From the NCBI GenBank assembly GCA_020072845.1, contig JAIQGF010000016.1, forward strand, positions 62,001-126,000: a stretch of DNA of 64,000 nucleotides, in the 5' to 3' direction. Each line of letters begins with the position of its first letter. Positions within the stretch are counted from its first letter, which is position 1. Of this stretch, positions 951 through 15,420 are shown piece after piece. Under the pieces are notes generated by a model that saw nothing but the letters and a program-made list of their open reading frames with translations, was not told the DNA's origin and searched no databases. Origin of the DNA: Terriglobia bacterium. GTDB taxonomy: Bacteria > Acidobacteriota > Terriglobia > Terriglobales > Acidobacteriaceae. The position numbers and the translations under genes were made by a program.

Positions 951-1682
951 CTATCGCGATTCAAAGATCGCGTATTGGATCGTTCCCGCAATCTTCCGCA
1001 ATCCCGAAATCTCCGCCACCGCACGCTCGGAAATCGGATTCTGATACGCCAGATATACCTTTCTCGGCGCTTCCCTCACCGACCGCTCCACCCCGGCGAT
1101 CACCTCCCGCAGAATATCTTCCGGGAAGGGATCAAAGATGAACACCACCAGCGGCTCCGGCGGAAGCTGAAACCGGCGCGCGTCGCCGCAGTGCAATTCG
1201 AAACTGCGGCACTGTTGCCGCTGGCTGGAATACTTGCGGACGTTCTCCTCGGCAATGGCGTGCAATTCCGGCAGCAGCTCGACGCCAATGATTCTGCGAA
1301 ACGGATAGTCGGAAGCCATCAGCAGCGCGCGTCCTTTGCCCGAGCCCAGATCAAGCAACGCATAGTCGCGGAAATCGATGGGAAGCTGGGCCATGATTTC
1401 GTGGAAGGTCAGCGGGTCGCTAGGCTGGTAGCCCCTGCCGGCAAGCACTTCGCGCATGCGCGTGGACAGCCGCAGGTTCGACCACGTTGTATCCACGCGA
1501 TAGTCCCAGTCGAAATCAATGTCGCCGAAGCGCAGACGGCGGCGCCACGGCAGATGGTCGCACGCAATCTCGAATGCACCCTTCACCAGTTCCGCCGAGG
1601 TGCGCAGCACGCCGCGCCGCGTGAACCACTCGCGCAACCAGGCGCGATACGGGAAGTCTGGGTGTTCGTTCACCGGCCCCAT
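951..1682 (-). CDS. Class I SAM-dependent methyltransferase
   Basis: A 243-residue protein with the SAM-binding glycine motif DLGSGKG at residues 111-117, followed by an acidic residue in VELLPE at the end of the next strand and a FDPFP segment further on. These features place it among class I Rossmann methyltransferases; the substrate is unknown. I chose the ATG at 1682 rather than longer upstream starts because those would run through the divergent PPOX gene; the two starts are then 24 nt apart, leaving little room for a shared divergent promoter. Its stop lies 7 nt from the stop of the permease gene, so the two genes are convergent. Confidence 0.75.
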   Translation of the reverse strand: MGPVNEHPDFPYRAWLREWFTRRGVLRTSAELVKGAFEIACDHLPWRRRLRFGDIDFDWDYRVDTTWSNLRLSTRMREVLAGRGYQPSDPLTFHEIMAQLPIDFRDYALLDLGSGKGRALLMASDYPFRRIIGVELLPELHAIAEENVRKYSSQRQQCRSFELHCGDARRFQLPPEPLVVFIFDPFPEDILREVIAGVERSVREAPRKVYLAYQNPISERAVAEISGLRKIAGTIQYAIFESR

Positions 1683-1706
1683 TCTAATCAGATAAACTGA
1701 TCGCGG

Positions 1707-2060
1707 ATGCCCGGCGATTTCACTCACCTGCGCGGCCGCCATTACATTGACCTGGTCACCTTCCGCAAGACCGGTGTGGGGGTGCATACGCCGGTGTGGT
1801 TCGCCGAGACCGATGGCCGCCTGTACATCTTCACCCGTCCCGACGCCGGCAAGATGAAACGGATTCGGAACAATCCACGCGTGGAGGTTGCGCCCTCCAC
1901 CCTCCGCGGCCGGCCGCTTGGCCCGCACGTTCGCGCCACCGCGCGCATCGCCTCTGACCAGGCCGCCGCCCGCCGGGCGATCCGCCGCAAGTACTGGCTG
2001 GCCCGCATTCCCTGGCTGTGGAGCAAGGACAACGTGTACGTGGAACTACGGCCCGCTTGA
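1707..2060 (+). CDS. PPOX-class flavin/F420-type oxidoreductase family protein
   Basis: A 117-residue protein resembling the small split-barrel pyridoxamine-oxidase-like family: a substrate strand reading TFRKTGVGVHTPVWFAE, then GRLYIFTRPDAGKMKRIRNNPRVEVAPS, then a basic C-terminal region. In this family the basic residues after the KxxRIRxNP motif contact the cofactor phosphate. Members use F420, FMN or heme-related substrates, and sequence alone does not distinguish them. It is divergent from the methyltransferase gene and does not appear to be in an operon. Confidence 0.75.
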   Translation: MPGDFTHLRGRHYIDLVTFRKTGVGVHTPVWFAETDGRLYIFTRPDAGKMKRIRNNPRVEVAPSTLRGRPLGPHVRATARIASDQAAARRAIRRKYWLARIPWLWSKDNVYVELRPA

Positions 2061-2182
2061 GGGGTGGTGACCATAGAAGGCACTCCTTACTAAAGTAATC
2101 TTCTGCCATTACCTCCATGTAGATAAAGTTACCTGTGAAGGTCACCACAGCTGCGCTGCAACTATGGGGGCGTCGGTAATCC
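2061..2182. other. Leader of the minor-pilin operon with an 8-nt inverted repeat
   Basis: The space upstream of the pilin operon contains the inverted pair TGGTGACC (about 2064-2071) and GGTCACCA (about 2139-2146), 67 nt apart. They could close a long RNA stem or be coincidental. I see no convincing -35/-10 pair and no recognised riboswitch. Confidence 0.3.
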
Positions 2183-2719
2183 ATGATTGCTAGTTGCCAC
2201 GTTTCGATTCCGGGACGGCGGGCTACACACCGGGGGAGAGCTCAGGCGCCGAGGTGTGGCGGCTTCACGCTCATCGAGCTCCTCGTCGCGGTTGCCATGA
2301 TCTGTGTAATTGCCGGCATCTGCATTCCGATGGCCCGCAACATGATTCGGAGTTACCGGCTCACCGCTGCCGCCTCCGCGGTCTCCGGCGCTATCCAAGG
2401 CACTCGCTACCAGGCCATCATGGTGGGTTGTCCATATACCGTTACCTTTACCCAGACCTCGACCACCTACCAGATCGCCACCGAGCCGGTGTCCGGCTCG
2501 CCTCCAGCCTGCGCGACCAGCTTTTCCAATCTCGGCAGCGCGATTCCGTGGGGGACCGCCGGCGATGTGACCATGAGCCCGTCGACCACCTTGCAGTTCA
2601 GTCCGAGCGGCATGGTAACGCCAACAACAGGATCGCTCTCCTTCACCCTTTCGAATGGTCTTTCGACCAAGACGGTCAACGTTTCAGGAGTCGGAAATGT
2701 CCAGGTTGCCAGCCCGTAA
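2183..2719 (+). CDS. Type IV minor pilin / pseudopilin, FimT-GspH type
   Basis: A 178-residue protein with a prepilin peptidase site: G27 then FTLIELLVAVA, with Glu at mature position 5 (E32), followed by about 20 hydrophobic residues. The C-terminal part is Ser/Thr-rich with two Cys (C80 and C111 regions), fitting the GspH/FimT beta-rich head. The leader is long (27 residues), so the true start may lie further in. It is the first gene of a cluster whose members overlap or nearly touch; in such operons FimT, PilV, PilW and PilX form the initiating tip complex of the pilus. PilD and the pilus motor genes are not in the window. Confidence 0.85.
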   Translation: MIASCHVSIPGRRATHRGRAQAPRCGGFTLIELLVAVAMICVIAGICIPMARNMIRSYRLTAAASAVSGAIQGTRYQAIMVGCPYTVTFTQTSTTYQIATEPVSGSPPACATSFSNLGSAIPWGTAGDVTMSPSTTLQFSPSGMVTPTTGSLSFTLSNGLSTKTVNVSGVGNVQVASP

Positions 2720-3344
2720 GAGAGGTGCGGAGGCCGGGTTCACCCTCATTGAGGTGATGGCTGCCGTATTCATCTTGACCGTGGGCGTCGTCTCGGTGGC
2801 GGCCCTGGCGGGAGGAATGCTGGCTTCCGGACAACAGTCCAAGTACATGACCTTGGCCGCTAGCCTTGCCTCGGAAAAGCTGGAAGACCTCAACCGGTGG
2901 AATGACGAGGCCCCGCAGATTTGTGTTCCGAGCGGAAATGCCTCAGTCGGTAGCCTGACTGCGGACGTATTACAGACGACCACGTGTCCAACCGGCGCTT
3001 CGGCCAGCGTCAGTTACTACGACGACGTCAGCATCACCCTGGTCAGCGGCACCGACTGCCCCGGTGCCACCGCGGGCTGCTTTGCCGACACGGTCTCCAG
3101 CCAGAGTGGCGGCACCACGCAGTACACGACGACGTATCACTCGCCCGACGGCACCATCCCCGGCCCCAGCGGCGCCCCGATTACTTCCACCACGGCGCCT
3201 TCCAGCGTCAGTTTTCATCGACGCTGGATTATCGAAGCGAACTCCCCTGCCAACGGCGTGCGGCGCGTCACGGTTCAGGTGCACGTGGTAGCTCCCACGG
3301 TCAAACCGATGGCCAATTTTCGCATGAGCATGGTGCGGCCATGA
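2697..3344 (+). CDS. Type IV minor pilin, PilV type
   Basis: A 215-residue prepilin: short leader ending at G14, then FTLIEVMAAVFILTVGVVS with E19 as the conserved Glu at mature position 5. I placed the start at the ATG at 2697, preceded by AGGAG about 8 nt upstream; this start overlaps the end of the FimT-like gene by 23 nt, a sign of translational coupling. The head contains several Cys, giving probable disulfides. A longer in-frame extension from 2655 is possible but would lengthen the leader beyond family norms. The next gene starts in an ATGA overlap with the stop of this one. Confidence 0.85.
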   Translation: MSRLPARKRGAEAGFTLIEVMAAVFILTVGVVSVAALAGGMLASGQQSKYMTLAASLASEKLEDLNRWNDEAPQICVPSGNASVGSLTADVLQTTTCPTGASASVSYYDDVSITLVSGTDCPGATAGCFADTVSSQSGGTTQYTTTYHSPDGTIPGPSGAPITSTTAPSSVSFHRRWIIEANSPANGVRRVTVQVHVVAPTVKPMANFRMSMVRP

Positions 3345-4576
3345 AAATGGAGACCTACTCTACGACGACCACCGGCAGCCAGCGGCGCGGGACCGCTGCA
3401 CGTGGCTTCTCGGTGCTTGAACTTCTCGTCTCCCTGGCTATCTTCATGCTGATCGGAGGCGCTGCCTTCAGCCTCTTCAGCAAGCAGCAGTCCTCCGCCA
3501 CGCTTCTGCAAAACCAGGTGGGGCTGCAAAACCAGGTGGGGCTCAACCTGGCCCTTCGCAATGCTGCCAACCAGTTGCAGCTCGACATCGCGAATGCCGG
3601 CTCCGGCTATTTCCAGGGCGTGAACATCCCCACCTGGCCGGTTGGCGTCACGATTGTGAACAACGTCCCTCCGACCGGTACTTCCTGCTACAACTCCACC
3701 ACCGCCAGGTACGGCGTCAATTGTTTCGATCAGCTCAACGTCATCACGGCGGCCGATCCCACGACTTATCCCCCCATCAATGCCACCGACAGCACGGGGG
3801 GGAACGGCCTGGGAAACTGCAGCAATACCAATACCGGCATCGCCTATGGGCGGGCTGCCAGCGGATTGACCCTGTCCCAGACGGCCGCCAAATTCAAGCG
3901 CAACGATCAAATCCTGTTGCTGAACAGCACAGGAAGCAAGCTTACGTCGGTCGTGCTGACGGCGGATGCGGTCGTGGCGGGATCGGCGGTCAAATTCACC
4001 TTCAATCCTACGCTGGATCAGACCGTCAGCGGAGTCGACTACAAGGGCTACAACACCTTGGCCCACGATCCGCTCGATATCACAGCCTGCGACGGCGTCA
4101 CGCCATGTTCGGCGGCTGCTCAGAACCCCGCGGCGCCGCAGCTCCCCGGCAAACTGGGAGAACAGTTTTGCGGCGGGGATTGGATGCTCAAGCTCAATCC
4201 GATCACTTTCCAGGTCGATACCACGACGGATCCCAAGAACCCCAAACTGATCCGCACGCAGAACGGCACCACATCCACGGTCATGGAACAGGTGATTGGC
4301 TTCAAGGTCGGTGCGGCGATCTGGAACCAAACTGCGGCGACACCCACGGACACCACCCAATACAACTATCGAGCTTCGACTTACACGAACCTGAATTCCG
4401 GGGATATGGCGTACAACTTTTCGCTTGTCCGTGCGGTACGGATTTCATTAATTGGGCGGACCGCGCCCAACCAAAATGCAACCTATACGTTCAGGAATTC
4501 ATTCGACGGGGGAAGCTACCAGGTTCAGGGCATCGCCATCGTAGTCAATCCGCGCAACATGAGCATGAACGATTGA
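3341..4576 (+). CDS. Type IV minor pilin, PilW type
   Basis: A 411-residue protein with leader to G22 followed by FSVLELLVSLAIFMLIGGAA; E27 is the conserved Glu. The start is the ATG at 3341 that overlaps the PilV stop as ATGA. The large head is rich in Asn, Thr and Gly, as usual for PilW. An exact 18-nt tandem duplication at 3506-3541 repeats LQNQVG within the exposed N-terminal helix, extending it by six residues. The protein presumably sits in the pilus tip complex with its operon neighbours; the ligand is unknown. Confidence 0.85.
   Translation: MKMETYSTTTTGSQRRGTAARGFSVLELLVSLAIFMLIGGAAFSLFSKQQSSATLLQNQVGLQNQVGLNLALRNAANQLQLDIANAGSGYFQGVNIPTWPVGVTIVNNVPPTGTSCYNSTTARYGVNCFDQLNVITAADPTTYPPINATDSTGGNGLGNCSNTNTGIAYGRAASGLTLSQTAAKFKRNDQILLLNSTGSKLTSVVLTADAVVAGSAVKFTFNPTLDQTVSGVDYKGYNTLAHDPLDITACDGVTPCSAAAQNPAAPQLPGKLGEQFCGGDWMLKLNPITFQVDTTTDPKNPKLIRTQNGTTSTVMEQVIGFKVGAAIWNQTAATPTDTTQYNYRASTYTNLNSGDMAYNFSLVRAVRISLIGRTAPNQNATYTFRNSFDGGSYQVQGIAIVVNPRNMSMND
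3506..3541 (+). repeat. Exact 18-nt tandem duplication inside pilW
   Basis: Two identical 18-nt copies (CTGCAAAACCAGGTGGGG at 3506-3523 and 3524-3541) encode a duplicated LQNQVG. Being a multiple of three, the duplication keeps the frame and lengthens the pilin N-terminal helix by about 1.7 turns. Perfect identity suggests a recent slippage event or selection. Confidence 0.9.
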
Positions 4577-4583
4577 AGGTTGT

Positions 4584-6554
4584 ATGAAACGCACATTAGG
4601 ATCACTCAACGCGCGAAGGAGGACGGGCAGGCTGACGTATCGCGTGTTGACCGCCGACACCGAAAGCGGCATGGCGCTGCTGACCACCATGCTGCTCTTG
4701 ATTCTCATGAGTATCCTGGCGCTGGCAATGGTGTTGACCGTCAATGCCGACATGGTGATCAACGGATATTACGGGAACACCCGCAGCTCGTTTTATGCGG
4801 CCGACTCCGGCATTAACATTGCGCGGGCGGAACTGACGAACCAGCTCGTATTGGCCGTCAACATGACTCCCTGCACCGGTTGGGGGACCACTGCCGGCAC
4901 CGGGTGCACTTCGCCCCCCCTGGCCACCGCCTCGCCCACCAACGCGTTGAGTTACGTCACCACGACCTATGGCAGCTTCACTTCGTTGAATTCCGGAGAG
5001 GCGGCCAACTCCTGGCCCGCAAGTTTCGCCATCGCCAACGTCACCGGTTGCGCCAACAGCTTCGCACTTGCTGCCGGATATCCGACGACAACCCAGAACG
5101 CGCAGGGACAGAACAACTCCTATACGTACCGGTACAACTACACCCTTTGCTCCAGCGGCCGAGCGCAGGCATTGCAGCAGGTGTACACGAAAGAGACCGG
5201 CAGCATCGTCCTGACCATCCAGGCGCAGACTACGACTACACAGCAAGTGACGGTGAGCTTTGCCGCCTTCGGCGCCTTTATCAATAACTATCCACCCTGC
5301 CTCGGTGCCTTGGTTCCCGGCACGATGACCGGCCCCATGTTCACTAACGGCGCATGGCAGTTCGCGACCGGAGGCTCGTATATCTTCACTGACCCGGTCG
5401 GCCAAGCCAATACCAAGGCCGACTACTTCATTAACGGACATTGCTATCAGTCGCCGACCTCCAGCTACACCGCGAACGGTCAGACCATCAAGCCCACCTT
5501 CCAGGGAGGCCTAAACCTGAATCAACCTTCGGTGGCGCTCCCGCCCAACGATTTCAGTCAGAAATGGGCGGTGTTGGACGGCAAAGGCTGTGGCGAAGGC
5601 GGTACGACTTGTGGCTCCGGCCCGCCACCGGCTCCCACCAACGCGAACTTGAACGCTAATCTCAAGGACCGCTGGGGCAATTCCTATCCGATCGGTGGTG
5701 CGTCCAGTGGTGTCTACCTGCCGTATTGCACGGGAGGCCCCGGCTGTACCAATCCGTACACCATCAACGGCGGTGGCATCTACGTCGCCGGTAACGCATC
5801 GGTCCAGATGAACGTCGGGACGGATGGCTCGAGTCATCCGACGCAGATCTACACGATTACGCAAGGCAGCACGACTACCACCGTCACCACCAATATTCAG
5901 GCCAATACCACGACGGTCACCTCAGGCTCGGGAACCACCACCTTGACCGGCGTTCCGCAGAACCTGACCGGCGTGTCTCCTTCACCCGCCACGGTGCTGT
6001 ACGTGGATGGGGACATCACCGGTCTGAAAGGGCCCGGCCAGGGCCAGCCCGCAATCCAGGACTATTCCCAAATCACCATTGCGGCCGACGGTAACATCAG
6101 CATCACAGGGGACCTGGTCTACGCGCACGAACCGGTCACCATGAACACCAGCGACACGCTCATTTCCGGCAACGATTACAACCAGGTGCTGGGGATTTTC
6201 ACGTCGACCGGCAACATCAACCTGAGTAGCCCCTATTCCAATCATAATCTCCAGGTGGACGGGAGCCTGGCCGCCATCGGCCAGAGTTGCTCGTCGAGTT
6301 CCTGCGGCTTCACCGTGAGCGGCTCCATCAACACGTTCAACAACGTTGGCGGCCAGATCCAAAGCAACATCTTCTCCGCCAGCATGGCGACGCAAAACAC
6401 CTATTTCGACCGCCGGTTCACTTCCCGGGCAGGTTTTGCGCCTCCATGGTTCCCTTCGACGACTCTCCCCCAAATGGACATTATCAATGCCGCCGCGCCG
6501 CTGGTTTCCCCGGCGCAGCCACAACGGCTGTCCTGGGTGACCTGGCCGCAATAG
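4584..6554 (+). CDS. PilX-type pilus assembly protein
   Basis: A 656-residue protein starting 7 nt after the PilW stop, with GAAGG ahead of the ATG. Residues about 28-52 (ESGMALLTTMLLLILMSILA) form the single N-terminal membrane helix of PilX-like proteins, followed by YYGNTRSSFYAADSGINIARAEL, a conserved PilX segment. The rest is a long Ser/Thr/Asn/Gly-rich exported region with several Cys pairs. PilX proteins lack a strict prepilin cleavage motif in many lineages. It is much longer than the roughly 200 residues of the Pseudomonas protein, so the C-terminal 400 residues are probably an added surface domain. Confidence 0.75.
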   Translation: MKRTLGSLNARRRTGRLTYRVLTADTESGMALLTTMLLLILMSILALAMVLTVNADMVINGYYGNTRSSFYAADSGINIARAELTNQLVLAVNMTPCTGWGTTAGTGCTSPPLATASPTNALSYVTTTYGSFTSLNSGEAANSWPASFAIANVTGCANSFALAAGYPTTTQNAQGQNNSYTYRYNYTLCSSGRAQALQQVYTKETGSIVLTIQAQTTTTQQVTVSFAAFGAFINNYPPCLGALVPGTMTGPMFTNGAWQFATGGSYIFTDPVGQANTKADYFINGHCYQSPTSSYTANGQTIKPTFQGGLNLNQPSVALPPNDFSQKWAVLDGKGCGEGGTTCGSGPPPAPTNANLNANLKDRWGNSYPIGGASSGVYLPYCTGGPGCTNPYTINGGGIYVAGNASVQMNVGTDGSSHPTQIYTITQGSTTTTVTTNIQANTTTVTSGSGTTTLTGVPQNLTGVSPSPATVLYVDGDITGLKGPGQGQPAIQDYSQITIAADGNISITGDLVYAHEPVTMNTSDTLISGNDYNQVLGIFTSTGNINLSSPYSNHNLQVDGSLAAIGQSCSSSSCGFTVSGSINTFNNVGGQIQSNIFSASMATQNTYFDRRFTSRAGFAPPWFPSTTLPQMDIINAAAPLVSPAQPQRLSWVTWPQ

Positions 6555-7525: not shown

Positions 7526-9373
7526 ATGCTGGATATAGCAGCCCTCGTGGCCGGCTTCGCGGTCCTCGCCATCCCCGGCATTTTCCTGTGGCGCGCCGCG
7601 TTTCCCGATCATGACCTGGTGGACCGCCTGACCTGGGGCGCTACCGCCGGGCTTGCGCTCGCTGTCCTGATCGCGTTTTACGTTTCCCTGTTCCGTCTGT
7701 CACTGTTCTGGCCGCTGTGGATGGGCGTGGTTGCGCTGAGCCTGCTGCTCGCCTGGCTTCGGTCGCCTCGCCGGCAATCGCCTGCGCCAGATCGCACCCG
7801 GTTTTGGCTGGCGTTGCTGCTCGCCGTGGTCGCCGTCTCCCGGTTCGCGCCCACGTTCTTTCGTGACATCCCCCTCGGATGGGACCCCAGCTTCCATCTC
7901 CTGCTGGCGAAGAAACTGCTGATCACCGACAAGCTCTTTTACGACTGGACCCCTTTTGAAACCGTCGCGCTGAACTATCCTCTGGGCAGTCATCTCCTGA
8001 TTGTGGTGCTCTCCCGTCTGACCTTAATTCCGCTGCACCGCGTCTTCCAACTGCTGGTTCCGGCGCTGGGTGTGATCACGACCGCCCAGGTGTATGGCCT
8101 CGCGAGAAATATTTTCCGCTCCTCGGAGGTCGCGCTGTATTCCGCGTTCGCCTATGGCATGTGGGCGGTCCTCGGCAGCATCGGCTATTACACCTGGGGA
8201 GGAATGCCCAACCAACTGGGCATGGTTTTTCTGATTCCGGTGATCGCCATCATGGCCCGGTCGGCGTGCAATCTACGCAGCGCCGCTGCCATTGCCGTGT
8301 TCCTCGCCGCCATGTTCGTGACGCACCATCATGTGGCCCTGGTAGCGGGCATTACGCTGGCCGTTGCTGCCGCGTATTTACTGCTCTCCTCCGAAACCGC
8401 CGAACCTGAAAAGTGGGGCAAGCTGCGCACTTTGACGCTCGGTGTGGCCGGCGCTATTGGGTTGGCTTCTGCCTATCTTGTGCCACAAGCCATGAAGGCC
8501 GCTCGGATTGGCGACACCGATGCGCTCCGCTTCCAAAGCTCCCATTCATTCTTGTCGCTGATCGCCGGCATGGGTGTGGTTTTCGTGGCCTTTGCCATTT
8601 GCGGCATCGTCCTGTCATGTGTGCGCGAGGCAGGAGCGCGCGCCGGCATGCTGCTCGCGATGTCACTCGCGCTGCTTGCCGCGTACCTGCTGTGCGGCCC
8701 GGTTTATCGCGCCTACGCTTTGCACCACTGGGGAGAGGAGCGCACCGCGCTGGAGCCTTCACGCTTCATTACCGACCTGGTTTACCTGGTCAGCGTATTC
8801 GCCGGTTACGCCATGTACCGCCTAGCTTCGCGCTATCGGCTGGAGCTTGGTACAACATTCGCGATCGCGCTGCTGCTGGCGCTCTCCAATATCCCGCTGT
8901 GGCGCGAGAGCTTCGCTCCGGACCGCGATCCAGATTGCTGGCGTGCCTACGCCTGGATTCAGCAGCACACCCCGGCCGACACGATCGTGCTGAACACCGA
9001 TGAATGGGCGCCCTACGCAACCTGGCGACGAACCCTCTTGACTCCCCTGCCGGCCTCGGAACCCCGCGCTGGCGACAACGATGCGCGCCGGGCAGCAGCG
9101 GCCTTGTCCGCGGGTCATCCGCCCCTAGTCAGCACAGTGGTCGAGGTGATTGCTCCCGGCGGCAAGTGGCAGCGTGGTTCGGTCATCTGGAATTCACCGT
9201 CAGGATGGGCGATCGTGCAGCAGTGGCCGGAGACAGCGGCGACAGCGCCGCGCCGACCAAAACCCGGCCATACGCTGCGCTTCCCCGCTTCTCCGCGCCC
9301 TCGGCTGGCGTTTACTTTGCGCCGCTGGAAATCTGAACTTCCGGCAAGCTTGCCGACCGCAATTTCTGGTTGA
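7526..9373 (+). CDS. Polytopic membrane protein, glycosyltransferase (PMT/DUF6541)-like
   Basis: A 615-residue protein with roughly a dozen hydrophobic segments. After the first three helices the loop FRDIPLGWDPSFHLLLAKKLL has the acidic/His arrangement found in the first extracytoplasmic loop of GT-C glycosyltransferases (WDPSFH). This supports a lipid-linked sugar transferase or related DUF6541-type protein, but acceptor and donor are unknown. The final 120 residues are a soluble domain. Its 3' end overlaps the convergent BNR-repeat gene by 62 nt, so both proteins are coded by the same DNA there. Confidence 0.6.
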   Translation: MLDIAALVAGFAVLAIPGIFLWRAAFPDHDLVDRLTWGATAGLALAVLIAFYVSLFRLSLFWPLWMGVVALSLLLAWLRSPRRQSPAPDRTRFWLALLLAVVAVSRFAPTFFRDIPLGWDPSFHLLLAKKLLITDKLFYDWTPFETVALNYPLGSHLLIVVLSRLTLIPLHRVFQLLVPALGVITTAQVYGLARNIFRSSEVALYSAFAYGMWAVLGSIGYYTWGGMPNQLGMVFLIPVIAIMARSACNLRSAAAIAVFLAAMFVTHHHVALVAGITLAVAAAYLLLSSETAEPEKWGKLRTLTLGVAGAIGLASAYLVPQAMKAARIGDTDALRFQSSHSFLSLIAGMGVVFVAFAICGIVLSCVREAGARAGMLLAMSLALLAAYLLCGPVYRAYALHHWGEERTALEPSRFITDLVYLVSVFAGYAMYRLASRYRLELGTTFAIALLLALSNIPLWRESFAPDRDPDCWRAYAWIQQHTPADTIVLNTDEWAPYATWRRTLLTPLPASEPRAGDNDARRAAAALSAGHPPLVSTVVEVIAPGGKWQRGSVIWNSPSGWAIVQQWPETAATAPRRPKPGHTLRFPASPRPRLAFTLRRWKSELPASLPTAISG

Positions 9374-12300
9374 GTGCCGCGAGGTCACGCGACTTCACCT
9401 GCTCCCATTTTGTGAGCAGCAGCGGGAGCGATCGCTGCAAGTCGCGGAAGGTCGCCACCACCTGCGATGTCGGCGCCGTGTCGGCGCTGTCCACCATCTC
9501 ATACACCGTCCCGAGGCTGCTGCTCAGGCCCGTAAGATTGTCGCTGGCAGCGCGCTGTCCGTATTCGCCGGGCGCGCCCTCCAGTGTTCGCAAGGTCTTG
9601 TCCAGTTCGTTGATCGCTTCGGCAACATCGCCCGGCAGCGACTTCGCGGGCATCAGCAGATTCCTTAACTGCGTCCGCACCGAGCGCACCTGCTGCAGGG
9701 CGTCGTAGTCCTGCTGCAGCACATCGGCGATCTTGGTTGCGATGTCGAATTGCTGCGCCAGGCCCTCCGCCGGCGTGGTGACGCGCGGGTCCATCTTCAC
9801 CGTGAGTTTTTGCGACAAGGTCTTCCCGTCCGCCGTGAGCTTCACCGTGTACTCGCCCGGCAGCGCGCGAGGCCCTTGCGGCGCCAGCGGAGTGTCGTGG
9901 GGAATCGCCGAAATCGGCAAGTTCCGCCTCAGCACGGCAGGCGGAGGATAGTGCAGGTCCCAAACCCAACGATGCATCCCCGACGACGCTGCCAAAACCC
10001 GCGGCGGCCTTGCCCAGGACGTCATCACGGTCAAGTCTTTGGGGTTGATCTCTTCCGGTTTATCCGTGCTGGCGAAGCGCCGCACCAATTTCTCCGCAGC
10101 ATCAAATACCTCTAAAACAGCCTGTTGGCTTTCATCCTTCAAGTAGTAGTTGATGATTGCACCATCCGGCGGATTCTGACCCGCCGGCTCTTCCGGCGGC
10201 AGCGGCGTGTCGGTATTGGTGCTGCGCCGCACGCGATATGCGACCTGTGGTTGGAACAGATGCGCCTGCGCCCGCGCCATTTCGACCGACATCTGCCGCA
10301 AGGGCGTAATGTCATCCAGAATCCAGAACGACCGCCCGTGCGTGCCCACCACGATGTCGTCGCCATGCACCACCAGGTCGCGCATGGAGGTGTGCGGCAG
10401 GTTCAATTGCAGCGCTTGCCAGTGGTCGCCATCATCGAAGGAGACCCAGATGCTAGTCTCCGTTCCGGCAAACAGCAGGCCCTTGCGCTCCGGATCTTCG
10501 CGCACCGCGTTCACCGCGGCATCGTCGGGCAAGCCGTTGGTGATCTTCTGCCAGGTCTCGCCGCCGTCGTGCGTACGGTAGATGTAGGCATGCAGGTCGT
10601 CAAGCCGGAAGCGATTCACCGCGGCATAGCAAGTGTTGGTGTCGAAGTGCCCGGCCTCGATCTGCGCGACCTTGCTCCATGGCGTCAACTCCGCAGGCGT
10701 GACGTTCTGCCAGGTCTTACCGCCGTCGCGGGTGACGTGGATGAGCCCATCATCGCTGCCCACCCAAATGACGTTCGCATCCTGGAATGAAGGCCCGATG
10801 CTGTAGATCACGCCGCGATGTTCGGTCTTGTCGTTGGCCGCGAAATTTCCCAGGTTTGGCGGCACACCGGGATGCTCGCGCGTCAGGTCGGGACTGACAA
10901 CCTCCCAGCTCTGCCCGCCGTTGGTCGTCTTGAACAGCACGTTCGATCCGAGGTAAAGCGCGTGCTTGTCCACCGGGGAGAAGATGAGCGGCGCGGTGCG
11001 ATTGAAGCGGTACTTCCCTGTCCGCAGCACGACCGGTGAAACATCCTGGGACTGCGTGGTCGTCTGGTCGTAGCGCGAGACTTTGCCGCCGTAAATGAAG
11101 TTCGGATGCAGCGGATCGGGCGCGACGTAGCCATACTCCTCCGTGCCCACGGTGTGCCAGTCGCGAAAGGTGATGGCGCCGTAATCGCTGCGGCTGGCGG
11201 TGCCGGCCGACCCGCTCTCCTGTTGCCCGCCGTACACCCAGTAGGGAAAGCGGTCGTCGGTGATCACGTGATAGAACTGCGCCGTCGGCTGGTTGTACCA
11301 CGAACTCCAGGTGGCGCCACCGTTCACGGTCAGGGTCGCGCCCTGGTCGGCGCCCATCAGGATGATGTCGGGATTCTCCGGGTTGATCCAGATGCGGTGG
11401 TAATCATCGCCGCCGGGCGCGCCTTTGATGGCGGTGAAGCTGGTTCCGCCGTCGGTGGAGCGGTACGTCGTGGTATTGGCGGAGTACACAACGTCCGGAT
11501 TGCGTGGGTCCACCTTGACCTCGGCGAAATCGTCGGCGCGACCGTAGACCCGCGTTTCATTGTTGACCCGATTCCACGTCTGGCCGGCATTGTCGGAGCG
11601 ATAGAGGCCGCCGTGCTCCGCGTCCGCCTGCACCGTCGCGTAGATGCGATTGGGATTGCTGGGCGCGATGCCGAGCCCGATTCGCCCTAGCCCTTCCGCC
11701 CACGTCGGCAGCCCCTGCGTTAGCGGCTGCCAGGTTTTTCCGCCGTCGGTGGATTTGAACAGTCCGCTGCCCGGCCCGAGAATGGCGCCCCCGGTGGTCC
11801 ATGGTGGCCGGCGCGCCGACCACAGCACGGCATACAGAGTCTGCGAGTTCTTCGGGTCGAATGCCAAATCAATCGCACCCGTGTTCTCGTCTTTGTAGAG
11901 AATCTTTTCCCAGGATTCTCCGCCGTCGGTGGAGCGGAATATGCCGCGCTCCTGGTTCGGCCCGTAGGGATGTCCGAGCACCGCGGCGAAGACGCGGTTG
12001 GGATCGCGCGGGTCTACCAGCACCACCGGAATTTGCCAGCCATCGCGCAGGCCAAGGTGCTGCCAGGTCTTGCCCGCGTCGGTGGACTTGTAAATTCCGT
12101 CGCCAGTCGAGAGGTCCGGGCGCTGCAGGCCTTCGCCGCTGCCGATGTAAGTGATGTCGGGATTGGAGGGCGCCACCGCCAGCGCTCCGATGGAGCCGGT
12201 CGGCTGGCCGTCGAAGATGGGATGCCAGGTGTGCCCGAAGTCGGTGCTCTTCCAGGCGCCGCCGTTGTTGACCCCGATGTAAAAGACGTTCTGCTTTCCG

Positions 12301-12458
12301 GGAATTCCCGTCGCCGCCACCGTTCGCCCGCCGCGAAACGGGCCAATCATTCGCCACCGCATCTCCTGATAGAGCGAGGGACTAAACTGTTGCCCGACAA
12401 GCGGCGCCCCGACGCACAACATCACCAACAGCCAGCGCAAACGCCCCATTGTTTTCAC
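9312..12458 (-). CDS. Secreted VPS10/sortilin-like BNR (Asp-box) repeat protein
   Basis: A 1048-residue protein with a signal peptide (GRLRWLLVMLCVGAPLVGQ) and then RMIGPFRGGRTVAATG, a start typical of exported sialidase-fold proteins annotated as VPS10-domain or glycosyl hydrolase in Acidobacteriota and Bacteroidota. Many Asp-box motifs of the form STDGGKTW, STDAGKTW, RTHDGGETW and KTTNGGQSW recur over residues 60-700, consistent with one or two beta-propellers. The last 300 residues include a beta-sandwich segment and a helical tail. Despite the fold there is no evidence for hydrolase activity. The gene is monocistronic and convergent with the membrane glycosyltransferase-like gene. Confidence 0.8.
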   Translation of the reverse strand: MKTMGRLRWLLVMLCVGAPLVGQQFSPSLYQEMRWRMIGPFRGGRTVAATGIPGKQNVFYIGVNNGGAWKSTDFGHTWHPIFDGQPTGSIGALAVAPSNPDITYIGSGEGLQRPDLSTGDGIYKSTDAGKTWQHLGLRDGWQIPVVLVDPRDPNRVFAAVLGHPYGPNQERGIFRSTDGGESWEKILYKDENTGAIDLAFDPKNSQTLYAVLWSARRPPWTTGGAILGPGSGLFKSTDGGKTWQPLTQGLPTWAEGLGRIGLGIAPSNPNRIYATVQADAEHGGLYRSDNAGQTWNRVNNETRVYGRADDFAEVKVDPRNPDVVYSANTTTYRSTDGGTSFTAIKGAPGGDDYHRIWINPENPDIILMGADQGATLTVNGGATWSSWYNQPTAQFYHVITDDRFPYWVYGGQQESGSAGTASRSDYGAITFRDWHTVGTEEYGYVAPDPLHPNFIYGGKVSRYDQTTTQSQDVSPVVLRTGKYRFNRTAPLIFSPVDKHALYLGSNVLFKTTNGGQSWEVVSPDLTREHPGVPPNLGNFAANDKTEHRGVIYSIGPSFQDANVIWVGSDDGLIHVTRDGGKTWQNVTPAELTPWSKVAQIEAGHFDTNTCYAAVNRFRLDDLHAYIYRTHDGGETWQKITNGLPDDAAVNAVREDPERKGLLFAGTETSIWVSFDDGDHWQALQLNLPHTSMRDLVVHGDDIVVGTHGRSFWILDDITPLRQMSVEMARAQAHLFQPQVAYRVRRSTNTDTPLPPEEPAGQNPPDGAIINYYLKDESQQAVLEVFDAAEKLVRRFASTDKPEEINPKDLTVMTSWARPPRVLAASSGMHRWVWDLHYPPPAVLRRNLPISAIPHDTPLAPQGPRALPGEYTVKLTADGKTLSQKLTVKMDPRVTTPAEGLAQQFDIATKIADVLQQDYDALQQVRSVRTQLRNLLMPAKSLPGDVAEAINELDKTLRTLEGAPGEYGQRAASDNLTGLSSSLGTVYEMVDSADTAPTSQVVATFRDLQRSLPLLLTKWEQVKSRDLAALNQKLRSASLPEVQISSGAK

Positions 12459-12527
12459 CCCGTGCGATCTATCGCGAAGCGACGATTGTACGCCTCCGCG
12501 AAATCTCCGCGCCGTGTGCGCTGATGC

Positions 12528-12544
12528 TGGTAGTGGGTCAATTT
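12528..12544 (+). repeat. Left 17-nt terminal inverted repeat
   Basis: The sequence TGGTAGTGGGTCAATTT is the exact reverse complement of 14768-14784. Inward, the similarity continues for about four more positions with two mismatches. It lies 70 nt upstream of the BNR-protein start codon, within that gene's probable promoter region. Confidence 0.85.
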
Positions 12545-12712
12545 TTGGTTTGCCGATAATTCATCCAGAAAAGTACCCCGGGGACGGGGACTCGGACCAT
12601 TGCCGACACGACAGCCGCGTTTTCTCGCGTGGTCCGCGAGTCACGCTCTACGAATTGTGGGCGTCCTGTGCCGAATCTCGGCAACAAAATCGACTGCATC
12701 CGCAACATAGCC

Positions 12713-12741: not shown

Positions 12742-12855
12742 TGGCAGAGTGTTCGTGGTCGCCTCGAATATCGGCAGGAACGTTTCAGGTGAGCACGAGG
12801 GAGCTACGTCAATGTGGGCCTGATGTCAGTCGTGAGACGAGCGGAGGATATCCTA

Positions 12856-14667
12856 ATGGCAGAAGTGATTTCCAGGGAATGTTGTTTTCGCACAGACAAT
12901 CTCCCTTTTTCTAAAGCTGTTTGGGAAGTCACGTTCGCGTGTCCGCTTAAATGTCCCTATTGTTTCCAGGAACGTACCGGCCATAGAAATGATATTTCGC
13001 GAGCAGATATGCACTCGGTCCGAGAAGGTGCCTTACGATTCCTTCAGTTCATGCAGCCGAGGAGTGTGCTTTTATCTGGTGGAGAGCCACTAACGCTGGG
13101 CGAAGATCTTTTCAAGCTAATTGAATCCATCAAAGAAATGGGCGCTGACTTTTCCGTGTCCACGACAGGGTTTCCTCAAGAGGTATTTCTGAGAATGCTC
13201 GAATTCGGGCCCGGCGGGATCAACATTAGCATCGACCCTGCAGGCATGGAGGGGAACCAGTACGAGTATCGCAAGACCAAGTTTGAGACACTCCTTGCCA
13301 CTCTACAGGCAATATCCTCGAAAAGAATTCCCATCAAGGGTACTTCTCTCATCACAAAAGAAAACCTCCAAAACGTGCCCGCCTATGTGGATATGCTTCG
13401 CACCTTGGCGGCCAAGGCACCAACACTGCGGACCCTCTTCATTACAAACCCATATCACATTGGATACGCGCGCCCTGATCTTTCTGTAAAACCCAGCGAT
13501 GTTGAGGAGTTCGTTGGCCAAGTTCGTTCACTTGCGACTTCGTCAATTGATCTCCGCTTCATTAATTTCTCGTCAATTGCTTTGCCCCTGCAGGACTGTC
13601 CTGCTGCAGCAAGCATCTTCTCAATAGTTCCGAACGGAGATGTTGTTGGATGCCCGTTTCTGTACCAGCGGAGTTCAAGCTTCGCTGTTGGCAATGTTGC
13701 CGAGAATCCAGCGGATGTCATCAGACGCAGTTTAGAGCGGTTCCGAGGTTTTCTCACGCAGAACATGCATCAACTGATTTGCTCCACGCCCGAGTGTGTG
13801 GAGTGCCCCGCCAAGCAGGAGTGCCATGGTGGATGTTTCGCAGAATCGTTCGCGATGAAAGAGACTTCGATACCGGCGCTATTGTGCAAGAGAACTGCTC
13901 AGAACGCCCAAGGACGCGACGAGAAACTTCTCTCGCTTCCCTTACAGGTGCGAAGGAAACTAATGGCTGGAAGACCAAAGGCAAGTTTCGAGCGGAGCAG
14001 CCTTGATCCCGAGCTAGAGGTCCGAATGGCCAGCCATGTTCGCGAATATATGAAGCACAGTTTCTCAGACATCGCACACCGTTTCGACCACGTCGAGGCT
14101 GTTGTCCAATTGGCGAAAACAATCGCGACACAGGAGAAGGCAAACAAGAGGATTGTCGTCCCTGCTGCATATTTTCACGATTTTGCACCACGGCAGCACG
14201 AGGCATTTCATTTCCACACGGACGAATCAGCGGATGCAGCCGCTACATTCCTTAACGAGAATGGGTTTGACGCTGACGAAATCACTGCAATCGTGCACTG
14301 CATTGTAGCGTCTGAGTTCAGTTCTTACCTGTTGGGAATCGAACCTAGGACCATAGAAGCAAGAGTTGTACGCGATGCAGACTTCTTGGAGTCAATGGGA
14401 GCAAGGGGAATAGCACGGGCATTTGCCTTCGCCGGCAAACATTGCGCCGAACTGGGAGATGTTGATTACGATCCTTACTCTCCACCATTCACACATCACA
14501 ATATTATGGCGCCTGATACGACTCCGATACAGCACTTCGCAGCCAAACTTCTCCTGCTGAATCGGTTACTCTTGACCGCGTCAGGAAAAGGCATGGGACG
14601 ACGTCGACATAAGTTAATGTTGGATTTCCTGCTGCAATACAAGAACGAGATGAAGGGCGTGAGTTGA
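12856..14667 (+). CDS. Radical SAM/SPASM-like protein fused to an HD phosphohydrolase
   Basis: A 603-residue protein. The start is the ATG at 12856, preceded by GCGGAGG with 8-nt spacing. The N-terminal half is a radical SAM enzyme: C29xxxC33xxC36 (CPLKCPYC) binds the SAM-cleaving 4Fe-4S cluster and SGGEP at 74-78 is the SAM-binding loop. A Cys-rich segment at about 310-328 (CSTPECVECPAKQECHGGC) matches a SPASM/twitch auxiliary cluster site. The C-terminal 200 residues form an HD domain: H408/H412, Y-F-H441-D442 and D507-A-D509, close to the YpgQ-like nucleotide phosphohydrolase pattern. Family knowledge gives no known joint role; a peptide- or nucleotide-modifying enzyme with a built-in hydrolase is plausible. 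GC is clearly lower than in the neighbours, indicating transfer. Confidence 0.85.
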   Translation: MAEVISRECCFRTDNLPFSKAVWEVTFACPLKCPYCFQERTGHRNDISRADMHSVREGALRFLQFMQPRSVLLSGGEPLTLGEDLFKLIESIKEMGADFSVSTTGFPQEVFLRMLEFGPGGINISIDPAGMEGNQYEYRKTKFETLLATLQAISSKRIPIKGTSLITKENLQNVPAYVDMLRTLAAKAPTLRTLFITNPYHIGYARPDLSVKPSDVEEFVGQVRSLATSSIDLRFINFSSIALPLQDCPAAASIFSIVPNGDVVGCPFLYQRSSSFAVGNVAENPADVIRRSLERFRGFLTQNMHQLICSTPECVECPAKQECHGGCFAESFAMKETSIPALLCKRTAQNAQGRDEKLLSLPLQVRRKLMAGRPKASFERSSLDPELEVRMASHVREYMKHSFSDIAHRFDHVEAVVQLAKTIATQEKANKRIVVPAAYFHDFAPRQHEAFHFHTDESADAAATFLNENGFDADEITAIVHCIVASEFSSYLLGIEPRTIEARVVRDADFLESMGARGIARAFAFAGKHCAELGDVDYDPYSPPFTHHNIMAPDTTPIQHFAAKLLLLNRLLLTASGKGMGRRRHKLMLDFLLQYKNEMKGVS

Positions 14668-14767
14668 GCAGACCTCCGACGACTGTCCCGTTCGGATTCG
14701 GAGCGATTACTCCGCGCATCTCCAGCACTACACGTTGCGCGGTTCCGCACGAGTCACGCCGACCCGG

Positions 14768-14784
14768 AAATTGACCCACTACCA
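14768..14784 (-). repeat. Right 17-nt terminal inverted repeat
   Basis: The sequence AAATTGACCCACTACCA is the exact reverse complement of the left repeat at 12528-12544. It lies 100 nt after the radical SAM-HD stop and 72 nt before the FKBP start. Confidence 0.85.
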
Positions 14785-14856
14785 AGCCCTCCCCACTTGG
14801 CGAAATTCCTGCGCCGGTGGTAGCTTGGTGGTTCGTCGTACAGGAGAACAAGCCTC

Positions 14857-15297
14857 ATGCTGAAGCTCGCTTTCGCGACCCTTGCACTTGCGTTCCTGCT
14901 CGCCTCCGCGCCCGCGCAGAACTCCGGCGGGCCCACCAAGGTTACAGGCAAACCGACCAAGCTGCCCGACGGCCTGGAGTATTGGGACATCAAGGAAGGT
15001 ACCGGCCCGGCCGCCAAAAAAGGCGACAAGGTCAAGGTCCACTACACCGGCTGGCTGACGGATGGCAAGAAATTCGACAGCTCGGTGGACCGCAACGATC
15101 CGTTTATCTTCACGCTTGGCGCCGGCCAGGTCATTAAGGGATGGGACGAGGGCGTCGCCGGCATGAAGGTTGGCGGCAAGCGCCAGTTGCGCATTCCGCC
15201 TGAGCTGGGTTACGGCAGCCGCGGCGCCGGCGGCGGCCTTATCCCGCCCAATGCCACCCTCATCTTTGACGTGGACCTTCTCGGCATTGGCAAATAG
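14857..15297 (+). CDS. Exported FKBP-type peptidyl-prolyl cis-trans isomerase
   Basis: A 146-residue protein: signal peptide 1-20 ([13 protein letters not shown]), then a single FKBP domain with the classic segments [37 protein letters not shown] and [10 protein letters not shown]. The active-site aromatic and Asp residues (Y, F, D in YTGWL and FDSS; W in KGWDEG) are present. It would catalyse prolyl isomerisation and assist folding in the periplasm. The gene stands alone, with the repeat/terminator module R1 directly after its stop. Confidence 0.93.
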
Positions 15298-15303
15298 AAA
15301 ACC

Positions 15304-15415
15304 TAACCACGGATTCCCACGGATTTCCGCGGATCAAAAGCAAGGCACGCCTCAAGACAAGGCGCGTTTTCTTTTTTGCTTTATCCGTGTGAATCCGCGT
15401 GAATCTGTGGCTAAG
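15304..15415. repeat. Repeat module R1: inverted arms of 10-nt units between two convergent genes
   Basis: The left arm (15307-15335) contains CCACGGATTC, CCACGGATTT and CCGCGGATC in tandem. The right arm (15383-15410) contains ATCCGTGTGA, ATCCGCGTGA and ATCTGTGGC, the reverse complement with mismatches. The arms lie just after the FKBP stop and just before the stop of the convergent dinB-like gene, and a T-tract hairpin lies between them. Confidence 0.8.
15346..15378 (+). terminator. Weak rho-independent terminator after FKBP gene
   Basis: A CGCCT/AGGCG stem of 5 bp with a 7-nt loop is followed by a T-rich run (TTTTCTTTTTT). The stem is short, but the outer repeat arms could extend it. It fits the end of the FKBP transcript. 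Confidence 0.45.
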
Positions 15416-15420
15416 TTTCT

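Follow-up and report, generated by a model that had tools for sequence, protein, structure and literature searches.

In the oxetanocin-A pathway a B12 radical SAM enzyme, OxsB, and an HD phosphohydrolase, OxsA, serve one nucleotide pathway as two separate proteins. OxsB has a cobalamin domain and is not known to carry a SPASM module. In the available excerpts of PMC13331322, OxsB is inactive when OxsA is confined behind a semi-permeable membrane, no direct binding between OxsB and OxsA is reported, and the related AlsB works without a partner of this kind. YpgQ of B. subtilis (5DQV/5DQW) and YedJ of E. coli (3GW7) represent an HD type whose solved chains are 211–239 aa long and stand alone. 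According to the excerpted text of PMC8177086, YpgQ forms a homodimer, carries a mononuclear Mn site and acts on NTPs and dNTPs as a hydrolase, preferring dGTP and dATP. Its metal ligands are H29, H58, D59 and D124, and its substrate residues are H25, R136, F140 and H158. A shared residue named in the same excerpts suggests that OxsA resembles YfbR more than YpgQ.

Radical SAM enzymes with SPASM modules include the maturases PqqE, MftC, SkfB and SuiB. The SPASM pattern given in the excerpted part of PMC5682303 is Cx2-4Cx5Cx2-3Cx14-18C plus two remote cysteines. In the mobile insertion cassette mic-qnrD, 24-nt imperfect inverted repeats surround a passenger gene and no transposase lies between them, according to the portion of PMC3913671 that describes it. 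The gene reported here would likewise place a radical SAM enzyme and an HD protein in the service of one nucleotide pathway, except that both are on one chain and SPASM clusters replace cobalamin. The comparison with OxsB/OxsA is one of logic, and membership is not claimed.

The window, the whole 64,000-nucleotide stretch of DNA that was analysed, encodes a 603 aa protein on the plus strand (12856..14667) in which Radical_SAM, SPASM and HD domains follow each other in the Pfam results. The frame, coordinates and length proposed in the initial annotation were borne out. The gene starts with ATG at 12856, stops at 14665–14667 and has no internal stop codon. A Shine-Dalgarno-like GGAGG (12843..12847, plus strand) lies 8 nt ahead of the ATG, which scored 5/6 against AGGAGG in a script, compared with 4/6 for a longer GTG start at 12814. 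When the bases of the gene were shuffled, 0/1000 shuffles were open from end to end. No promoter-like sites were found in the two stretches scanned, terminator-like sites were on the minus strand only (12575–12591), and an Rfam search gave no match.

The low GC content reported earlier is real. The gene has a GC of 0.503 and a GC3 of 0.523, while the GC3 of ten neighbouring genes is 0.73–0.87, and by this measure it looks foreign in its genome. GC3 is nearly equal in the two halves (0.527 and 0.517), and an equally foreign-looking composition in both halves argues against a recent frameshift join. A frameshift artefact or mis-join, the first objection raised against the fusion, was rejected because the gene is a single ORF with equal GC and GC3 in its halves in the one assembly. 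Judged by its frame and domains, the fusion is real and is built from known families.

The radical SAM core comprises about residues 20–235 (12913..13560, plus strand). PF04055 matched residues 24–179 with 51.2 bits, above its cut-off of 29.5, which places the protein in the superfamily. The CPLKCPYC motif (CxxxCxxC at 12940–12963) supplies C29, C33 and C36, and SGGEP occupies residues 74–78; both are intact, as had been noted. In AF2 models of the core, strands alternate with helices at low confidence. The SPASM module follows (13597..13887, plus strand). It barely passed the Pfam SPASM cut-off (21.7 versus 21.5 bits) and clearly passed that of NCBIfam TIGR04085 (41.9 versus 27). The initial annotation had pointed to a SPASM-like cysteine cluster at about residues 310–328. 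C309, C314, C317, C323 and C327 are indeed there, but a SPASM set is complete only with C248, C266 and C344, which lie outside that range and are likewise present. Written out, the arrangement is C248-x17-C266 ... C314-x2-C317-x5-C323-x3-C327-x16-C344 with C309 as an extra cysteine. The seven SPASM cysteines fit the pattern in the PMC5682303 excerpt, which assigns the half to the SPASM subfamily, and the residues amount to a full SPASM set, enough for two predicted auxiliary iron-sulfur clusters.

The HD domain, of the YpgQ/YedJ type, occupies about residues 385–603 (14008..14664, plus strand). PF01966 scored 32.6 bits against a cut-off of 22, and H412, H441, D442 and D509 are present as expected for the HD superfamily. 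The numbering of the HD core claimed earlier (H408/H412-H441D442-D509) is exact, and the reading of the protein as a radical SAM/SPASM enzyme fused to a YpgQ-like HD hydrolase is supported by the Pfam and NCBIfam domains and the kept residues. By sequence the closest solved structures are YedJ (3gw7, 82.8 bits), lp_2664 (2pjq) and YpgQ (5dqv). In the alignment to 5dqv, with a residue offset of 6 derived by hand, the metal ligands H29, H58, D59 and D124 of YpgQ correspond to H412, H441, D442 and D509, and its four substrate-contact residues H25, R136, F140 and H158 correspond to H408, R521, F525 and H560. All eight are kept. The YedJ equivalog PRK10119 gave 100.7 bits, short of its cut-off of 286.

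The full-length AF2 model has a mean pLDDT of 62 and a pTM of 0.45, and is good for much of the HD part alone, where block means reach at least 90 at residues 381–400, 411–440, 461–490, 501–510 and 571–580. The HD fold superimposed on YpgQ-ADP (5dqw) with a Z score of 18.8 and 2.4 Å over 180 residues at about 30% identity. In HD alignments with 17 and with 22 rows, every row keeps the metal ligands, H408 and R521. The invariant positions do not include F525 and H560, and both fall in a weak region of the model (blocks 521–560, pLDDT 53–65). In an HD tree of the fusion (P0001) and 96 of 99 loci, three having been removed by hit and length filters, the fusion is on the longest of 97 branches (1.64), unplaced within a 54-row side, and the substrate of the HD half may therefore have shifted. 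The tree also pairs a genome from the phylum of the fusion with a named Acidobacteriota MAG (L015 with L074, 100/98), which suggests that this phylum is Acidobacteriota. The residue correspondence establishes a full YpgQ-type active site in the HD half, which is a predicted nucleotide hydrolase.

Which substrate the radical half acts on is less easily read from its relatives. The top NCBIfam scores of this half were mycofactocin MftC (61.7 bits versus a cut-off of 265) and PqqE (57.2 versus 381). No equivalog cut-off was reached among the best 25 of 65 NCBIfam families, and the radical half thus belongs to no named subfamily among those 25. A PDB sequence search matched it to the PqqE structure 6c8v. 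AF2 modelled this half poorly (mean pLDDT 51.6), and its fold matches were PqqE, SkfB, SuiB, viperin, BlsE, DesII and AbmM. These mix peptide-acting enzymes with others that act, in part judging by their titles, on nucleotides or sugars, and they do not discriminate the substrate. No B12-binding (cobalamin) domain was found among Pfam matches up to E 10, which sets the protein apart from the OxsB type. A second radical SAM match occurs in the genome at 26% identity; there is no second HD match at 1e-5.

One explanation for these matches is that the radical head matures a peptide or protein encoded elsewhere while the HD head does something secondary, for example nucleotide turnover or regulation. 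It would account for MftC and PqqE heading the profile list, for the match to 6c8v, and for the complete SPASM cysteine set, of the kind treated for RiPP enzymes in the excerpts of PMC5682303. Like PqqE, MftC, SkfB and SuiB, which are among its best profile or fold matches, the fusion has the radical SAM core and the full cysteine set; unlike them it carries a fused HD domain and has no match to an RRE/PqqD domain and no recognised precursor peptide among the small ORFs checked. Neither the MftC nor the PqqE score comes near the level of those maturase equivalogs. No RRE/PqqD domain was among the Pfam matches in the protein, and none of the four small plus-strand ORFs checked upstream of the gene in the cassette was a well-started precursor, their ribosome-binding sites being weak (2–4 of 6). 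Together these two results weaken the peptide reading. The wholly kept HD active site is also unlike that of a bystander. We consider a maturase unlikely.

The explanation that we prefer, tentatively, is a single-chain, two-headed nucleotide-modifying enzyme with a logic like that of OxsB plus OxsA, encoded by the sole gene of the cassette described below. The intact domains, the eight kept YpgQ residues and the fold match to YpgQ-ADP count in its favour. The gene would have reached the genome as the lone gene of an inverted-repeat-bounded cassette. The radical head would carry out SAM-driven hydrogen abstraction from a nucleotide or a nucleotide-linked substrate, with the auxiliary clusters carrying electrons or holding the substrate. 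Before or after this step the HD head would use a mononuclear divalent metal, for instance Mn2+, to strip pyrophosphate or phosphate off the same nucleotide. The covalent fusion would hold both sites near each other, a closeness that seems to matter for the separate OxsB/OxsA pair, and the enzyme would make an accessory metabolite in the form of a modified nucleoside or nucleotide. Counting against a nucleotide substrate are the peptide and cofactor enzymes MftC and PqqE at the top of the radical-half profiles, the absence of a B12 domain like that of OxsB, the apparent likeness of OxsA to YfbR instead of YpgQ, the weak modelling and variability of F525 and H560, and the long HD branch. If the two heads do share a substrate, one gene would couple radical SAM/SPASM chemistry to nucleotide hydrolysis, in a compact system whose two catalytic sites can be separately inactivated by single alanine changes.

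Genome collections were searched for the same fusion. At E≤1e-30 the whole protein matched its own genome and no other: 1/150 of the genomes drawn from the family, 1/396 from the phylum, 1/399 from the class and 1/397 from the order. The draws overlap and are not additive, and the number of first-look candidates scored in each genome was small. With the threshold at E≤1e-12, matches appeared in 44/296 other genomes of the phylum; in 42 of these the match was confined to the HD half and in 2 to the radical half. Matches were found in 69/72,556 plasmid records and 4/50,697 phage records, none of which covers 80% of the fusion protein. Five scans of viral contigs gave no match spanning both halves; they returned, respectively, nothing, four HD loci, two radical SAM loci, one radical SAM locus and one radical SAM locus. 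Exact 8-residue words, a search insensitive below high identity, picked out 45 stretches of GTDB contigs and no relative. An HD-profile pattern retrieved at least 588 GTDB stretches with at least 570 relatives, although the pattern excluded the DADF of the fusion protein and close siblings are therefore beyond its reach. The best 80 were kept, and none matches before residue 337. ORFs of at least 80 aa in these 80 loci, many of which end at contig ends, gave no match to the radical half (blastp, 1e-3), and a motif scan of them found one NrdG-like ORF (L050). The fusion is rare by these searches and was not found in the other genomes sampled, with phyla outside its own only weakly sampled. No account of a radical SAM-HD fusion was found among the open-access papers that the literature searches listed. 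A housekeeping homologue of the whole fusion, the second objection raised with the initial annotation, was not found in the genomes sampled, while HD-only relatives are common. Separately, a viral contig (L148 2923–4383) and an Aureibacter plasmid (L023 3929–5353) encode SPASM-type radical SAM proteins that are 49% identical and have a CxxC pair at the C-terminus; on the plasmid the gene comes after three DUF1843 genes and a RimK-type ligase.

This rarity bears on whether the two heads work together at all. Two once-separate enzymes may have been joined by chance, each acting alone, or the gene may be heading to loss. Since full-length relatives were not found among the sampled genomes, conservation of the fusion cannot be shown, and the long branch of the HD half fits the same picture. 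Yet all catalytic residues examined are kept in both halves, GC3 does not differ between them and the start site is good, so we regard an uncoupled fusion as quite unlikely.

The initial annotation had also spoken of a cassette setting, and this holds more strongly than was proposed, as the gene lies between inverted repeats. The left arm (12528..12555, plus strand) belongs to a 28-nt imperfect inverted repeat with the core GGTAGTGGGTCAATTT, located by a core motif scan, and is 82% complementary to 14757–14784. The right arm (14757..14784, minus strand), found by repeat search, matched the core at 20/20 positions when the genome was scanned. The arms are 2201 nt apart and the fusion gene is the single long ORF between them. 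To the left is a gene for a 1048-aa BNR/VPS10-like repeat protein, named by eye (9312..12458, minus strand), common to all three same-genus genomes compared. To the right is a FKBP-type peptidyl-prolyl isomerase gene, also named by eye (14857..15297, plus strand), which is matched in G055 and G109; the G136 contig ends before it. The intergenic region at 15297–15420 has many short matches elsewhere in this and the same-genus genomes and is a dispersed repeat.

When the genome was scanned for GGTAGTGGGTCAATTTCCGG with ≤3 mismatches, five sites were found and the control gave zero. Two are at the fusion locus, two on contig C8 and one on C3. The C8 pair flanks a 413-aa ORF, with a GC of 0.52 between the arms. 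The C3 arm has a partner with four mismatches, a GC of 0.48 between the arms and only a 146-aa ORF without a Pfam family. The genome thus holds three paired arm loci, the fusion locus included. No recognised transposase was present among the proteins scanned from cassettes, these three loci among them, and no element combining matching ends with a transposase turned up in the genome. Two inverted repeats with no transposase between them are what marks a mobile insertion cassette, and the locus, like mic-qnrD, has a passenger enclosed by imperfect repeats, of 28 nt as against 24 nt in mic-qnrD. It differs in that no clear target-site duplication was seen by eye at the fusion locus and no autonomous partner was found in its own genome. 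The 4-bp CTGG around the C8 pair may be due to chance. The fusion locus resembles a mobile insertion cassette and may be mobile.

In same-genus genomes the site is occupied differently. Homology between G055 and the window extends as far as 12556 and starts again at 14750, so that both arms are shared, the left one at the same site, and the interior differs. The G055 cargo consists of two methyltransferases and a DUF2071 protein, then a metallo-beta-lactamase-fold gene, then a second right arm. G136 is homologous as far as 12544 and again from 14750; the genes in between encode a Ser/Thr kinase and a protein of 423 aa that has no Pfam match. The G136 left arm is only partly similar and its arms are degenerate, the left beyond 4 mismatches of 20 and the right with 4. 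Homology with G109 stops at 12491 and resumes at 14814 around 532 bp of unrelated DNA with a small ORF, seen by eye, and no arm. One site therefore has three different cargoes in three species, one of them with degenerate arms, and in a fourth 0.5 kb of unrelated, armless DNA.

A genus scan for GGTAGTGGGTCAATTTCCGG (≤3 of 20) gave three sites in G055, all at the cassette locus, none in G109, and one true match in G136, which is elsewhere (C34:680). The reversed control, at ≤3 of 20 mismatches, had 3 matches in G109 and 0 in the other three genomes. Outside the genus (≤1 mismatch of 18) one site each was found in 5/117 genomes, while the control matched in 3/117, and no partner arm was present in the 6–11 kb around any of the five sites. 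On these two grounds the outside-genus sites were treated as noise. At the C8 pair, whose right arm ends at L135 5992, right-flank homology starts at L135 5988, 5997 and 6067 in the three same-genus genomes. With 40 first-look candidates per genome, the 413-aa ORF was covered by no same-genus match and a left-flank match was found in G136 and G109 only. The low-GC stretches bounded by inverted repeats in the genus are 12528–12555/14757–14784 in the window, L135 4432–5992, L136 3377–3914, L121 2148–5904 and L122 about 1015–3911. A direct repeat (84%) at L121 4531–4605 and 5869–5943, which includes the right arms, surrounds the metallo-beta-lactamase-fold gene of G055. Recombination between its copies could delete that gene and yield an arrangement like that of the window.

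The exchangeable position also invites an anti-phage reading, in which the nucleotide pool is depleted or poisoned on infection, either by a chain-terminating nucleotide made by the radical head, as viperin does, or by degradation of dNTPs by the HD head. Over its kinase domain only, the G136 cargo kinase matched PD-T4-6 models in PADLOC (235 bits), and one methyltransferase of the G055 cargo matched mad2 (78.7 bits), but models of both these kinds are generic. Neither Pfam (E≤0.01) nor PADLOC (E≤0.001) gave a match for the cassette proteins of 413 aa (L135 4617–5858, minus strand) and 423 aa (L122 1053–2324, plus strand). For the fusion protein PADLOC gave partial viperin-model (pVip) matches of 45.8 and 28.5 bits over residues 22–226, the shared radical-SAM core, and a weak Cas6 match of 15.6 bits. 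A SPASM module is not a known viperin feature; unlike pVip the fusion bears both SPASM and HD, and the NCBIfam viperin model scored 34.5, far below its cut-off of 180. The preference of YpgQ for dGTP and dATP in the excerpts of PMC8177086 would suit such an effector. No defence gene was recognised beside the fusion gene. An anti-phage effector seems improbable, and the defence or signalling role suggested in the initial annotation found no direct support. What speaks for defence is the exchangeable position and the generic kinase, methyltransferase and viperin matches. The idea of a transferred accessory gene was supported.

To return to the two-headed nucleotide enzyme, a broader proposal, which we rate as rather doubtful, is that a one-gene nucleotide-modifying pathway moves from one bacterium to another as a passenger of cargo-exchanging cassettes at a fixed chromosomal site, as a SPASM-based, fused counterpart of OxsB/OxsA that possibly yields a bioactive nucleoside. 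The cassettes are a possible route by which the genus acquires or swaps low-GC accessory genes, and could be mined for further enzymes. Elsewhere in the window, at 2984–6554, there are pilin-like and type IV pilus assembly genes with prepilin-type N-termini, as judged by eye.
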